Part shown: in pieces, positions 55,456 through 63,587 of the stretch
Layout: each line of letters starts with the position of its first letter
Position numbering within the stretch: position 1 is the stretch's first letter
Source of the DNA: Pseudomonadota bacterium
GTDB lineage: Bacteria; Pseudomonadota; Gammaproteobacteria; Acidiferrobacterales; Acidiferrobacteraceae
Length of the DNA: 64,000 bases
Direction: 5' to 3'
Assembly: GCA_021795715.1 (NCBI GenBank)
Contig: JAJYPD010000003.1
Span: 1 to 64,000 of the forward strand
Translations under genes and position numbers: made by a program
Notes under the pieces: model-generated
Database searches by the model: none
What the model was told of the DNA's origin: nothing
What the model saw: only the letters and a program-made list of their open reading frames with translations

Positions 55456-56172
55456 ATGCTGACCATCGCTTCTTACAACATTCACGGTTGCATCGGCAAA
55501 GATCGTGCGCGCGACGTCGATCGCATCGTCCGGGTGATCCACGAGCTGGAGGCCGATATTGTCGGTCTCCAGGAGGTTGATACGCATTCCGGTCCGGGTC
55601 TTGATAGTGCGCAGATGGATTATCTGCCGCATGCCACCGGCCTGAACGCGGTACGCGGGCCGCTGCTCGCGCGCCATCACGGCCATTATGGAAATCTCTT
55701 GCTCACCTCGCTACCGGTTGCCGATGTGCGGCACATCGACCTGACCGTGGGGCGACATGAGCCGCGCGGCGCGCTTGATGTGGATCTGCGTTTTGGCGAG
55801 CACCTCGTGCGCGTGGTTGTCACGCACTTTGGTCTTGTGCCGTGGGAACGGCGCAAGCAGGGCCGGCGCCTGCTCGAGGCGCTTGCGCCTGCGCCGGAGA
55901 AACTGCTGGTGCTGATGGGGGACTTCAACGCGTGGCGGCCGGCGAGCGGGGCGCTGTCGGGCCTGCATGCCGCGCTCGGCTCGCAGCCGGCACCGGCCAC
56001 CTATCCCGCCTTCTTTCCGCTGCTGCCTCTGGACCGCATCCTGGTCTCACCAAGGGAGGCGCTCATCGGGCTGCACACGCACACGACAACGCTGACCCAG
56101 GTGTGTTCCGACCATCTGCCGCTACGGGCGGCCGTGCAGTGGCCGCCCGTGGGGGACGAAACGGCCGCCTAG
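55456..56172 (+). CDS. Endonuclease/exonuclease/phosphatase-family hydrolase (YbhP-like)
   Basis: The 238-residue product has the EEP fold signatures: SYNIHGCIGKDRARDVDRI, LQEVD (metal-binding Glu), VVVTHFGLVPWERRKQ, LMGDFNAW, and the C-terminal SDHLPLRA with the catalytic His. The substrate may be a phosphodiester in lipid or nucleic acid. The last codons GCC TAG lie inside the 86-bp inverted repeat. It probably shares a transcript with the PLD-VTT gene, as ybhP does with clsB. Confidence 0.88.
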   Translation: MLTIASYNIHGCIGKDRARDVDRIVRVIHELEADIVGLQEVDTHSGPGLDSAQMDYLPHATGLNAVRGPLLARHHGHYGNLLLTSLPVADVRHIDLTVGRHEPRGALDVDLRFGEHLVRVVVTHFGLVPWERRKQGRRLLEALAPAPEKLLVLMGDFNAWRPASGALSGLHAALGSQPAPATYPAFFPLLPLDRILVSPREALIGLHTHTTTLTQVCSDHLPLRAAVQWPPVGDETAA

Positions 56173-56252
56173 GAGCCCCGTCTGACTACCCCTGCCGGCC
56201 GACATGATGAATGGGGGCCGGCAGGAGGGAGCGGATGCCGGCGTTTCGGGTG
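56167..56252 (+). repeat. Left arm of 86-bp inverted repeat with internal hairpin
   Basis: This arm is the reverse complement of 56732-56817 with only two mismatches in 86 bp. It begins in the last codons of the EEP gene (GCCTAG) and contains a perfect 10-bp stem (CCTGCCGGCC at 56191-56200 with GGCCGGCAGG at 56216-56225) and a 15-nt loop, about 20 nt after the stop codon. Confidence 0.95.
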
Positions 56253-56811
56253 CAGTGGACCGACAATACAGTGGGATACATAGCCCCAATGACATCCGAA
56301 GCCAACATTCCCTGGCCATAAGGGTCCACGAAACTCGGGCAAGGTCATGATGATCTCGGGTACGCCGGCGGGGGGGCGAAGGCCTGTTCGATGACCCGTT
56401 ACTGTCTTCCCGCCTCTACAATAGCAATCGAGGTACGGCCGGTCAGGCCCGGTATGACTCGGTGCCGCCTTCAGTCAAAACCATGATCCGGGGCGTATTG
56501 TCACCGGGGTCAGACAGGCAGCCAGCGGATAGGGCTTCGGCCCAAATCCCCCGACTGGTACAACCATGAACACAGGCACCGCGCTCCCGTTCGCGAGCCC
56601 CGGCGCGCGTCATGCCGGCCGGACGAAGCGGCCGCAGAGAACCTGCAGAGCGCAGGGAGCCACCTCTGCACCGCCTAACAACCTCTTAAAGCCCCAAAGC
56701 GGCCCTCAGTTGACGGCCGTTGCCGCCGCAACACCCGAAACACCGGCATCCGCTCCCTCCTGCCGGCCCCCATTCATCATGTCGGCCGGCAGGGGTAGTC
56801 AGACGGGGCCC
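56173..56811. mobile_element. Decayed element bounded by 86-bp inverted repeats
   Basis: The stretch between the EEP and CDGSH genes has no intact gene. It is bounded by the two repeat arms, holds the IS3-like remnant at 56553-56677, and is otherwise low in coding signal. The arms at 86 bp are longer than IS3 termini and no target-site duplication is clear, so it may be a nonautonomous element or the product of an insertion plus rearrangement. Confidence 0.6.
56553..56677 (+). pseudogene. Remnant of IS3-family transposase C-terminus
   Basis: One frame reads DWYNHEHRHRA, the hallmark near the end of IS3-group orfB transposases. A shift of frame then gives ALPFASPGARHAGR, matching the usual continuation of the type RFVTPAxRHAG. 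A frameshift and stops show decay; upstream catalytic DDE parts are not found. It lies between the inverted-repeat arms. Confidence 0.6.
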
Positions 56812-56817
56812 CTAGGC
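56732..56817 (-). repeat. Right arm of 86-bp inverted repeat with internal hairpin
   Basis: Mirror copy of the left arm with the same stem-loop at 56759-56793. Its outer end supplies the TAG stop codon of the CDGSH gene (GCCTAG on the minus strand), just as the left arm does for the EEP gene. Confidence 0.95.
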
Positions 56818-57006
56818 GTGCTCTTCGGACTTGAAGCCGACCTTCATGTGTGTCCCGTCACAAAACGGCTTGCGTGCGGACTGTCCGCAGCGGCACAAAG
56901 CGACCGGCTTGCCGGCCTCCGTCTTGAACGGGCGTCCCTCGTTGTCGACCACATCGACACCCTCGACCAGATAGGGCCCATTTGCCTTAACCGTGATTTT
57001 TGCCAT
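56812..57006 (-). CDS. CDGSH iron-sulfur domain protein
   Basis: A 64-residue protein with one CDGSH motif CRCGQSARKPFCDGTH, whose three Cys and one His bind a [2Fe-2S] cluster, and the N-terminal ITVKANGPYLVEG seen in the small bacterial single-CDGSH proteins. It follows ilvD by 8 bp on the same strand. IlvD is itself an Fe-S enzyme, so a link in cluster supply or repair is thinkable but unproved. Confidence 0.93.
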   Translation of the reverse strand: MAKITVKANGPYLVEGVDVVDNEGRPFKTEAGKPVALCRCGQSARKPFCDGTHMKVGFKSEEHA

Positions 57007-60669: not shown

Positions 60670-60987
60670 GTGGACACACATGGCATGATCGTGATCGAGG
60701 GCGTCACAGAGGACGGGCGCACCTTCCGGCCAAGTGATTGGATCGAGCGCATCAGCGGGAGCTTATCGACCTTTGGCATGGATCGCCGCATCCGGTATTC
60801 ACACTACCTGCAGCCGCAGATCATAGACGGCGGCAAGTGCCTGGTCATTGACCCGGAACTGAAAAAAGTCAACCCGAACGCCTTTAGCTTCCTGATGGAT
60901 TTTGCCAAGGGCAACAAATTGAAGATCCACGGACCGGATGAAGGCAGCGCCAAAGACATGACCTCGGGACGCCTGTGCCCGGCTTAA
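60670..60987 (+). CDS. DUF3579 protein
   Basis: A 105-residue protein of a conserved betaproteobacterial/gammaproteobacterial family of unknown function, with IEGVTEDGRTFRPSDWIERISG, YSHYLQPQIIDGGKCL and NPNAFSFLMDFAKGNKLKI. GTG at 60670 is preceded by GAGGTAAG; ATG 60685 is a possible shorter start. Convergent with the DUF1015 gene, overlapping by 4 bp. Confidence 0.85.
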   Translation: MDTHGMIVIEGVTEDGRTFRPSDWIERISGSLSTFGMDRRIRYSHYLQPQIIDGGKCLVIDPELKKVNPNAFSFLMDFAKGNKLKIHGPDEGSAKDMTSGRLCPA

Positions 60988-62192
60988 TCGTCGAGCCCGT
61001 AGGACACCAGACCGTCGGCAAGCTTCGGCTCGAACCACGTTGACTTCGGAGGCATGACCTCGCCCTGGTCTGCCACCGTCATGAGGTCGGCAAGATCCGT
61101 CGGGAAAAGATGGAAGGCCACCCCGCCTGCCGCATCGACCCGCGTCACCAGGGCCTTTGGACCCCGAATCCCTCCCACGAAATCGATGCGCTGATCCCGC
61201 CGCGGATCCTCGATGCCCAGCAAAGGCCCCAGAATCTCGTTTTGCAGCAGGCTGACGTCGAGACGGGCCACCGGATCGGCCGGCAATGCCGGGCGATAGG
61301 TCAACCGGTACCACGTGCCCGCCAGATACATGCCCCACTCGCCACGCCGGCGGGGCTCCACCACCTGATCGTCCTTTTCCACCATGAAACGCGCCGACAC
61401 GGCGGCCAGGAAGGCGTCGACGCTGTGGCCATTGAGATCCGCGACGACACGGTCATAATTTAAGATCTTTACCTCGTCATCGGGAAACAAAACGGCGAGG
61501 AAACGCCCGCGCGCTCCTGCGCCTCCCTGCTCCCGCGCGATGACGGCGGCCGCCGCCGAACGGTGGTGGCCATCGGCGATATATACGCGCGGCAGCGTCT
61601 CGAACGCCTCGGTCAAGGCCCGAATCTGACCGGCATCGGACACCGGCCACAAACGGTGACGCACGTCCTGCAAGGACGCATCGATCGCCGGCGCTCCCGC
61701 CGCCGCCGCATCCATGAGCAGACCAATCCGCGCATCCGCCCGGAACGTCAGGAACGCCGGTCCCGTCTGGGCATTCAGGGCCTCGATGTGGCGAACCCGG
61801 TCACGCTCCTTGTCGGGGCGCGTGTGTTCATGCCGGCGAATCCGCCCGCTCTCGTAGGCGGCCACCGACGCTGCCGCCACCAGACCGCGCTGGCGCTGGG
61901 CACCCATGACCAGTTCGTACACGTAATAACACGGCTGCGCATCGCGCCTTAAGACCGCGTGGCACAATGTCTGCCAATTGTCGCGCGCGCGCGCAAAGAC
62001 CGCGTCATCAGCCGGATTGGTATCCTCCGGCAAATCCACTTCAGCCTTGGAAACATGCAGAAAACTGAACGGGCGCCCCGCGACGGCGTGGCGCGCCTCG
62101 CGGCTGGACAAGACATCATAAGGGGGCGCTATGACATCGGCGGCGCGTTCCGGCAACGGACGCCAGCCGCGGAAAGGACGAATGAGCGACAT
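60984..62192 (-). CDS. DUF1015 family protein
   Basis: The 402-residue product begins MSLIRPFRGWRPLPERAADVIAPPYDVLS and has RHEHTRPDKERDRVRHIEALNAQTGPAF and VYIADGHHRSAAAAVIA, the core motifs of DUF1015, a family including SerK-type free-serine kinases in archaea. Function here is unproved. AAGGAG precedes the ATG, setting the start. Confidence 0.88.
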   Translation of the reverse strand: MSLIRPFRGWRPLPERAADVIAPPYDVLSSREARHAVAGRPFSFLHVSKAEVDLPEDTNPADDAVFARARDNWQTLCHAVLRRDAQPCYYVYELVMGAQRQRGLVAAASVAAYESGRIRRHEHTRPDKERDRVRHIEALNAQTGPAFLTFRADARIGLLMDAAAAGAPAIDASLQDVRHRLWPVSDAGQIRALTEAFETLPRVYIADGHHRSAAAAVIAREQGGAGARGRFLAVLFPDDEVKILNYDRVVADLNGHSVDAFLAAVSARFMVEKDDQVVEPRRRGEWGMYLAGTWYRLTYRPALPADPVARLDVSLLQNEILGPLLGIEDPRRDQRIDFVGGIRGPKALVTRVDAAGGVAFHLFPTDLADLMTVADQGEVMPPKSTWFEPKLADGLVSYGLDD

Positions 62193-62388
62193 AAAATCTC
62201 CTTGCAAGCTGCGCATTCAAACGCATTTCCGGCCGCAAGTAAACGATCCGCATCGGCCGTGAATCCGGGGCGCAGACACCCCCGGGCACCGCCCTTGTGA
62301 TCCATCTTCGGCATTTCGATGCGGATCGTCTGCAAAACGTCGCCGATCGGCTATCGACGATAACCGCCTTTTCACGCTACAAAGAGGC

Positions 62389-62640
62389 ATGCCAAAACGC
62401 GCCCGGGCGATCGTCGCTCATAAGATACGGCTGCTGCGGTTTTTGCGGGGCTGGTCACAAGAACAACTGGCCGCCCAAAGCGGACTTCATCGCACCTACG
62501 TCAGCGCCATCGAACGCGGTGCGCGCAATGTGGGACTCGACAATCTCGAACGCCTCGCCGATGCCTTCGGGTTGAGCGTCCAGGAACTGCTCGATAACGA
62601 CAACACACTGGCACCGCCACGGAACCGGACATGCTCATGA
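62389..62640 (+). CDS. XRE-family transcriptional regulator
   Basis: An 83-residue protein that is little more than one helix-turn-helix domain (KIRLLRFLRGWSQEQLAAQSGLHRTYVSAIERGARNVGLDNLERLADAF). The type resembles small phage-like or restriction-control (C protein) regulators. GAGG precedes the ATG. Its last 10 bp overlap the CsrA/RsmN-like gene. Confidence 0.9.
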   Translation: MPKRARAIVAHKIRLLRFLRGWSQEQLAAQSGLHRTYVSAIERGARNVGLDNLERLADAFGLSVQELLDNDNTLAPPRNRTCS

Positions 62641-62837
62641 TCGATTGTAAGGTAGGCGAGCGATTGCTGATCACGCTCGACACGGCCGTGCTGGACGGCC
62701 GATCCCTGCAGGAACTGGCTGCGGGCGGACCGATTGAGGTGATTGTCGCCCGCGCCGGCGCCCGCTCGGTGCGGCTCGCCGTGTCGGCGCCCGCCGCGTT
62801 TTGCCTGCGCCGGACCGCCCGAGCGAGAAACCCTTAA
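62631..62837 (+). CDS. Divergent CsrA/RsmA-family protein, RsmN-like
   Basis: The 68-residue product follows the CsrA pattern: MLMIDCKVGERLLI at the start (CsrA strand 1, KVGE in place of RVGE), and IEVIVARAGARSVRLAVSAP then LRR at the end, aligning with CsrA strands 3-5 and Arg44. Between them is an extra segment of about 16 residues (LDGRSLQELAAGG). An insert of this kind is known in RsmN/RsmF of Pseudomonas aeruginosa, a helix between strands 2 and 3. Arg6 of CsrA is Cys here. It overlaps the XRE gene and so should be co-expressed. Confidence 0.72.
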   Translation: MLMIDCKVGERLLITLDTAVLDGRSLQELAAGGPIEVIVARAGARSVRLAVSAPAAFCLRRTARARNP

Positions 62838-62888: not shown

Positions 62889-63587
62889 ATGGCATTTTTC
62901 GACCGACCACCCCTGGAATTCTGCAGCGGACCGCGACCCCAGCACGCACTGGTTTGGCTGCACGGTCTGGGCGCGGACGGTCATGACTTTGCCGATCTCA
63001 TCCAATCTTTGGCCGATCTCAGCGCCGAATCCATCCGCTTCATTTTTCCCCATGCCCCGTTGCGCCCGGTCACCTTGAACGGCGGCGCCGTCATGCCGGC
63101 CTGGTTTGATCTGTTCGGCATCACGCCGCACGATCCGCAGGATCAGACCGGCCTGACACGGGCGGCGGGGGCCATCGCGGAGCTCATCGAACACGAACAC
63201 CAGCGCGGTATCGCCCCGCAAAAAGTCATTCTGGGGGGATTCTCCCAAGGGGGCGCACTGGCACTGCACGTCGGACTGACCGGCGCCCAAAGACTCGGGG
63301 CCCTCGTCGCCTGGTCGACGTATCTGCCTCTGGCCGAACGGTTCGCACAGGCCTGCCGGCACCCGCGGATCCCGCTTTTCATGGCGCATGGGACCGAAGA
63401 CACGATGGTCCCCTTCGACTTTGGCACGCGCTCGCGCGATGTGATCAGGGCAGCCGGCGGGCACCCCTATTTCAAGAGTTACCCGATCGGACACAGCGTC
63501 GCCGACGAGGAGATCGTGGATCTGCGCAGTTTTCTTACGCCCATCCTGCAGGGCCCGGTGCTTGGCGCGCGCAGCACAAGCGGCTAA
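62889..63587 (+). CDS. Alpha/beta hydrolase, carboxylesterase/phospholipase type
   Basis: The 232-residue product has VWLHGLGADGHDFADLI, the nucleophile elbow GGFSQGG with Ser119, the acid in AHGTEDTMVPF and the His in YPIGHSVADEE, all in the order of the PF02230 esterase family. Expected to hydrolyse short acyl esters or lysophospholipids in the cytosol. Starts 51 bp after the CsrA-like gene; ATG at 62889 gives the standard length. Confidence 0.92.
   Translation: MAFFDRPPLEFCSGPRPQHALVWLHGLGADGHDFADLIQSLADLSAESIRFIFPHAPLRPVTLNGGAVMPAWFDLFGITPHDPQDQTGLTRAAGAIAELIEHEHQRGIAPQKVILGGFSQGGALALHVGLTGAQRLGALVAWSTYLPLAERFAQACRHPRIPLFMAHGTEDTMVPFDFGTRSRDVIRAAGGHPYFKSYPIGHSVADEEIVDLRSFLTPILQGPVLGARSTSG

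Follow-up and report, generated by a model that had tools for sequence, protein, structure and literature searches.

Canonical CsrA/RsmA is a domain-swapped dimer. The RsmN/RsmF type of the CsrA family forms a non-swapped dimer and binds ANGGA RNA. In P. aeruginosa RsmN/RsmF (4kji, 4krw, 4k59), a helical insert of ~16 residues lies between strands 2 and 3, the C terminus is shortened, and a canonical CsrA is found in the same genome. Extra CsrA copies that add post-transcriptional control are carried by plasmids, phages, and ICEs. Examples include RsmQ, LvrC, and the phage csrA genes, which are mobile and of the usual CsrA type. The controller (C) proteins are known timing devices of restriction-modification systems. 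C.AhdI, C.BclI, C.Esp1396I, and C.PvuII are small XRE proteins whose gene comes first and overlaps, or is closely spaced with, the effector gene. By the criterion used for C proteins, the stop codon of the C gene lies within about 20 nt of the start of the effector gene, and the PvuII system has a leaderless C-dependent transcript and overlapping C and R genes (PMC2997769).

Here we describe a gene pair that combines features of both groups. It lies in a 64,000-nt stretch of DNA (the window) from a member of the family Acidiferrobacteraceae, order Acidiferrobacterales, a group whose members favour acid and sulfur; the genome comprises 2.1 Mb in 71 contigs. An XRE gene overlaps a gene for a CsrA-like protein by 10 nt in different reading frames (Table 1). 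The original prediction, made from the sequence alone, had placed the overlapping pair at 62389-62837, and an ORF check of the window agreed with it. Comparison with the congener G001 gives dN/dS values of 0.11 (XRE) and 0.24 (CsrA-like). These values indicate selection on both protein sequences and confirm that the two genes are truly coding. The divergent DUF1015 gene is a marker of this locus in the host family and has the same position in G001, G004, G006, and G007, while the downstream carboxylesterase gene adjoins the pair also in G001 and G004. The window also contains a 96-nt inverted repeat at 56157-56252 and 56732-56827, whose arms are 94% complementary and separated by 479 nt; it could represent a small repeat element.

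Table 1. Features of the XRE/RsmN-type locus, with positions counted in the window.
Feature	Position	Strand	Basis
DUF1015 gene, divergent flank (context only)	60984-62216	-	PF06245, 6.9e-91
Candidate XRE operator: CGATGCGGATCGT (62317-62329), then CTGCAAAACG (62330-62339) and a GATCGG stretch up to the -35-like element	62317-62351	+	
-35-like element TATCGACG (consensus TGTNGACG); GAC 33 nt before the XRE ATG	62352-62359	+	
-10-like element TACAAA, 5 nt before the ATG	62378-62383	+	Sequence
XRE/Cro-type HTH regulator, 83 aa, similar to C proteins	62389-62640	+	HTH_3, PADLOC, PDB
RsmN-type CsrA-family protein, 68 aa	62631-62837	+	PF02599, 3.8e-4; profile to RsmF 4k59, 1.1e-10; fold match
Insert of residues about 17-32 (DTAVLDGRSLQELAAG), located between strands 2 and 3; RsmN-type helix	62679-62726	+	AlphaFold helix 26-31 between strands 11-16 and 36-42
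Arg61 codon, equivalent of RsmN Arg62 / CsrA Arg44, key RNA-contacting residue	62811-62813	+	Alignment A1
Carboxylesterase gene, downstream (context only)	62889-63587	+	PF02230, 3.4e-51

The second gene had been predicted to encode a CsrA-family protein with an extra segment of about 16 residues as in RsmN/RsmF, and both parts of this claim hold. The CsrA profile PF02599 matches the lone protein at 20.8 bits (E=3.8e-4), which is below the Pfam cut-off of 27. The match is weak because the insert splits the CsrA domain: profile positions 1-39 are stretched over residues 1-56, which corresponds to an insert of ~16 residues. Relatives of the protein score above the CsrA cut-off, at 42-45 bits, and a search of related genomes found them in nearly all members of the host family and in many of the order. 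These relatives were required for the structural comparison. With the lone protein, a phmmer search of the PDB returned nothing useful, AlphaFold gave a poor model, and a contig search found 0 loci, as against ten loci with alignment A2. A profile of 17 relatives ranked RsmF (1.1e-10) and RsmN (1.4e-10) first in the PDB and canonical CsrA behind them, with full-length RsmF/RsmN alignments that run through the insert. An AlphaFold model from ten input sequences (pLDDT 82) has the elements E2-7, E11-16, H26-31, E36-42, E46-52, and E57-62. This strand-strand-helix-strand-strand-strand succession is the RsmN order, and the best four Foldseek matches of the model are RsmN/RsmF structures (probability 0.97-1.00).

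The key arginine of RsmN, Arg62, is an RNA-binding residue (PMC3791407). Its equivalent Arg61 is unchanged in all 17 aligned relatives, and Arg48 is likewise retained in the window protein. By analogy with RsmN, the protein probably binds RNA that contains GGA. It resembles RsmN/RsmF further in its shortened C terminus and in the presence of a canonical CsrA, encoded once in the host genome (90 bits, L001). This canonical CsrA belongs to the same family and has the same RNA-contact Arg. It differs in lacking the insert, and its gene stands apart, close to a tRNA and with a leader of its own. The window protein is unlike RsmN/RsmF in that identity is about 20% over the model match, and Gly33-Pro34-Ile35 follows the inserted helix in place of Gly-Ile, with Gly-Pro in nearly all relatives. 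It also lacks the Arg8-Glu64 salt bridge of RsmN and RsmA, having Cys6 and Ala63 instead. Because both the Gly-Ile motif and the Arg8-Glu64 pair are missing, we call the protein RsmN-type and not an RsmN orthologue. Its gene is in an operon with an XRE gene, and no such description was found for rsmN. Unlike RsmQ, LvrC, and phage csrA, the window gene lies on the chromosome, is of the RsmN type, and has an XRE partner. For a paired RsmN-type protein, the searches returned no relatives on plasmids or phages, which leaves a mobile-element origin unsupported.

Other arrangements of CsrA-family genes were also observed. In G379, one ORF (L098, 1201-1869) contains two tandem RsmN-type domains, possibly a covalent dimer. 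In G018 (L054-L062) there are about ten RsmN-type copies; several are truncated, and in some cases an XRE gene follows the copy rather than preceding it. In G045, chains with two CsrA domains and no insert are encoded at L143 (1121-1462), L146 (reverse strand, 1328-1729), and L147 (reverse strand, 2-379). Their neighbours include additional genes for C-like XREs and for CsrA proteins with one domain, which makes this a CsrA/XRE expansion in one genome.

The original prediction held that the two genes may form a DNA-plus-RNA regulatory unit and suggested a neighbourhood search for XRE-CsrA pairs. Of the 57 genomes of the order, 17, from 11 genera and four families, have an RsmN-type gene immediately preceded by an XRE gene in the same orientation. 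Such adjacency greatly exceeds what chance would produce. In an eighteenth case, close to the end of a contig, the RsmN-type gene is reduced to a fragment. A third congener (G002) is without the pair; its DUF1015 match covers residues 44-410 only and is truncated at the end facing the expected pair, so this absence looks like a contig break. The distance from the XRE stop to the RsmN-type start is -10 in the window and -10 to +15 nt in all 17 pairs, which is within the C-protein range. In most of the other pairs the gap is -1 to +15 nt, and the second gene has a Shine-Dalgarno sequence. In the window, the overlap suggests that the two genes are translationally coupled. A profile built from eight of the paired XREs, the other nine being outside it, gives the paired XREs the highest ranks among the XREs of the order. 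Pairing is clustered on the XRE tree (5 changes vs 14.2 in shuffles), and this tree is too short to resolve one clade. Outside the order, the complete genome G181 has an RsmN-type domain (42 bits) fused to a C-terminal HTH_31 domain (30.6 bits) in a single in-frame ORF (L081, reverse strand, 1501-1953), with both domains above cut-off. The fusion is absent from three relatives from the order of G181. The proposed regulatory unit is thus supported by conserved pairing, together with the CsrA profile and the RsmN fold. Searches of open-access literature on CsrA with XRE, C proteins, or fusions turned up no account of the pairing.

The XRE protein resembles the controller proteins of restriction-modification systems, a similarity that goes beyond the original prediction and is based on sequence comparison. 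Pfam HTH_3 matches it at 3.2e-16. The best PADLOC model is Control_protein (1.4e-24), nearly the whole of which is covered. Among solved structures the closest relatives are the Neisseria regulator 3vk0, then C.AhdI (2e-10), with C.BclI and C.Esp1396I also among the closest. The locus is like those of C proteins in having a small XRE gene first and close spacing to the effector gene. Its conserved block and promoter spacing would also fit the upstream operator and leaderless transcript of a C-protein operon. It is unlike them in that the pair has no known C-box, the effector is of the RNA-binding type, and the genes lie amid housekeeping genes. No restriction or methylase gene was found among the identified neighbours (DUF1015, carboxylesterase, and other non-RM genes). 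Because this linkage is missing, the XRE protein is not classed as a C protein, although it may function like one. XREs form a broad class, and the resemblance may reflect only shared HTH ancestry.

In all 16 listed pairs, the XRE start codon follows the GAC of the -35-like element by 33, 34, or 35 nt; in the seventeenth pair the distance is 34 nt (counted by eye). The background for this spacing is 3 of 127 long ORFs in the window, or 2.5% of all ATGs; the relatives come from one order, and shared ancestry inflates such motif statistics. TACAAA or a near variant is present at the same spacing in most Acidiferrobacter loci. With a -10-like element 5 nt from the ATG, transcription would start at or next to the ATG, and the XRE mRNA is predicted to be leaderless, in contrast to the Shine-Dalgarno sequence at most RsmN-type genes. 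A strict sigma-70 scan called no promoter at the pair, and a terminator scan was empty. Less related XREs of the same genomes are mostly without such a promoter. The 34-nt distance (by eye) is found also at XREs that have no RsmN-type partner, in G037 of the order and in G205 and G311 of another family, which suggests that the XRE gene and its promoter are a unit of their own with a variable partner. In G205 and G311 (L183 and L184, about 1501-2144), the similar XRE gene is overlapped by a ~130-aa gene that matches no Pfam family and may be an alternative partner of this unit.

Upstream of the -35-like element, at a fixed distance, the block GCAAA.CG is conserved in 11 representative paired loci from 10 genera (0 of 5000 shuffles, a figure inflated by relatedness), and many adjoining columns are not conserved. 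This block is a candidate XRE site. G000 and G001 each contain a single copy of the candidate operator, which points to local autoregulation. A perfect 13-bp inverted repeat (ACGATCCGCATCG at 62243-62255 and CGATGCGGATCGT at 62317-62329) has its right arm abutting the conserved block and is possibly a second operator. At the orthologous DUF1015 locus of Acidiferrobacter, the XRE gene is absent and the RsmN-type gene is in its place. The core promoter is retained there, and in the nine listed genomes the RsmN-type ATG follows the GAC by 32-33 nt. The block is changed, from CTGCAAAACG to CTGTACCTTTG or the like. Fourteen genomes of the genus hold the RsmN-type gene without such an XRE, and no XRE of the paired type was found elsewhere in Acidiferrobacter genomes. 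Since the related genus g3 retains the XRE gene at the DUF1015 locus and other families retain it at other loci, the most economical history is that Acidiferrobacter lost its XRE gene.

The computed features are two genes in conserved pairing, an RsmN-type fold, and a C-protein-like XRE, along with a fixed promoter-to-ATG spacing and an upstream block that is conserved and changes where XRE is absent. We consider it likely that the pair is an autoregulated C-protein-like operon in which the endonuclease is replaced, as output, by an RNA-binding regulator. The XRE protein would bind at the candidate site, and because this site precedes the -35, activation is the more probable effect, as with C proteins. 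Ordinary negative autoregulation would make the XRE protein a simple, phage-type repressor of its own operon, with the RsmN-type gene riding along. Many XREs are repressors, 3vk0 is nearer in sequence than C.AhdI, the block adjoins the -35 so that binding there could block polymerase, and Acidiferrobacter manages without XRE. However, the block is at the usual position of an activator and not over the -10 or the start, C proteins both activate and repress, and an RNA regulator recurs as the partner too regularly to be a passenger. Repression by XRE may be compatible with the evidence, but this explanation of the locus as a whole appears unlikely.

A further alternative is that the RsmN-type protein of the host genus is degenerating and has ceased to bind RNA, and that the locus preserves only the decaying remains of an ancestral pair. 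The original prediction had pointed to an unusual Cys at the CsrA Arg6 position, and this residue is confirmed. It is common to the window (MLMIDCKVGE) and G001 (MLMIDCKAGE), while the remaining 15 aligned relatives have Arg. Within the order Cys6 was seen only in the host genus, and three more distant members of the class (L086, L087, L089) also have Cys there (MRIITCKPGH and the like). The window protein thus has Asp5-Cys6 for Thr/Ser-Arg, and it has Ala63 for Glu and Ala55 for RsmN Arg56. Members from other families of the order retain the Arg and Glu of the salt bridge. In the host genus these replacements could weaken RNA binding, and the dN/dS of the gene is higher than that of XRE. It is nevertheless well below 1, the frame is intact in both congeners, Arg61 and Arg48 are retained, and the DCK motif itself is common to both species, so that decay of the locus is improbable. 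A toxin-antitoxin-like pair, with XRE as antitoxin/repressor and its small partner as toxin, is very improbable in spite of the small overlapping genes with XRE first and of weak matches to HipB/Y4mF antitoxin models, because the partner has the RsmN fold and the 14 Acidiferrobacter-genus genomes hold it without XRE, so that it needs no antitoxin.

In the C-protein-like operon that we favour, the XRE protein would bind just upstream of the -35 of its own promoter. It would set the output of a single mRNA for both genes, with its 5' end at the XRE ATG. The RsmN-type protein would in turn act post-transcriptionally, probably on GGA-containing RNA, beside the ordinary CsrA. We hypothesize that a block of the CsrA type, acting at a Shine-Dalgarno sequence, would leave the leaderless translation of XRE unaffected but would reach that of the RsmN-type gene. 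XRE thus probably drives the adjoining RNA-binding regulator in a compact two-level control circuit. More tentatively, a positive-feedback switch of the C-protein type may have been recruited, in which XRE activates the leaderless operon and the RsmN-type protein appears late or in an all-or-none manner. The module would have been inherited across the order, with XRE lost and the promoter made independent in Acidiferrobacter. This natural loss is a ready comparison for testing the role of XRE. RsmN-type proteins, described from Pseudomonas, are extended here to Acidiferrobacterales and other Gammaproteobacteria. A conserved C-like operon with a CsrA-family output would show that this circuit has been put to a second use, the timing of post-transcriptional control, and regulation at the levels of transcription and RNA would be linked within one 450-base unit.
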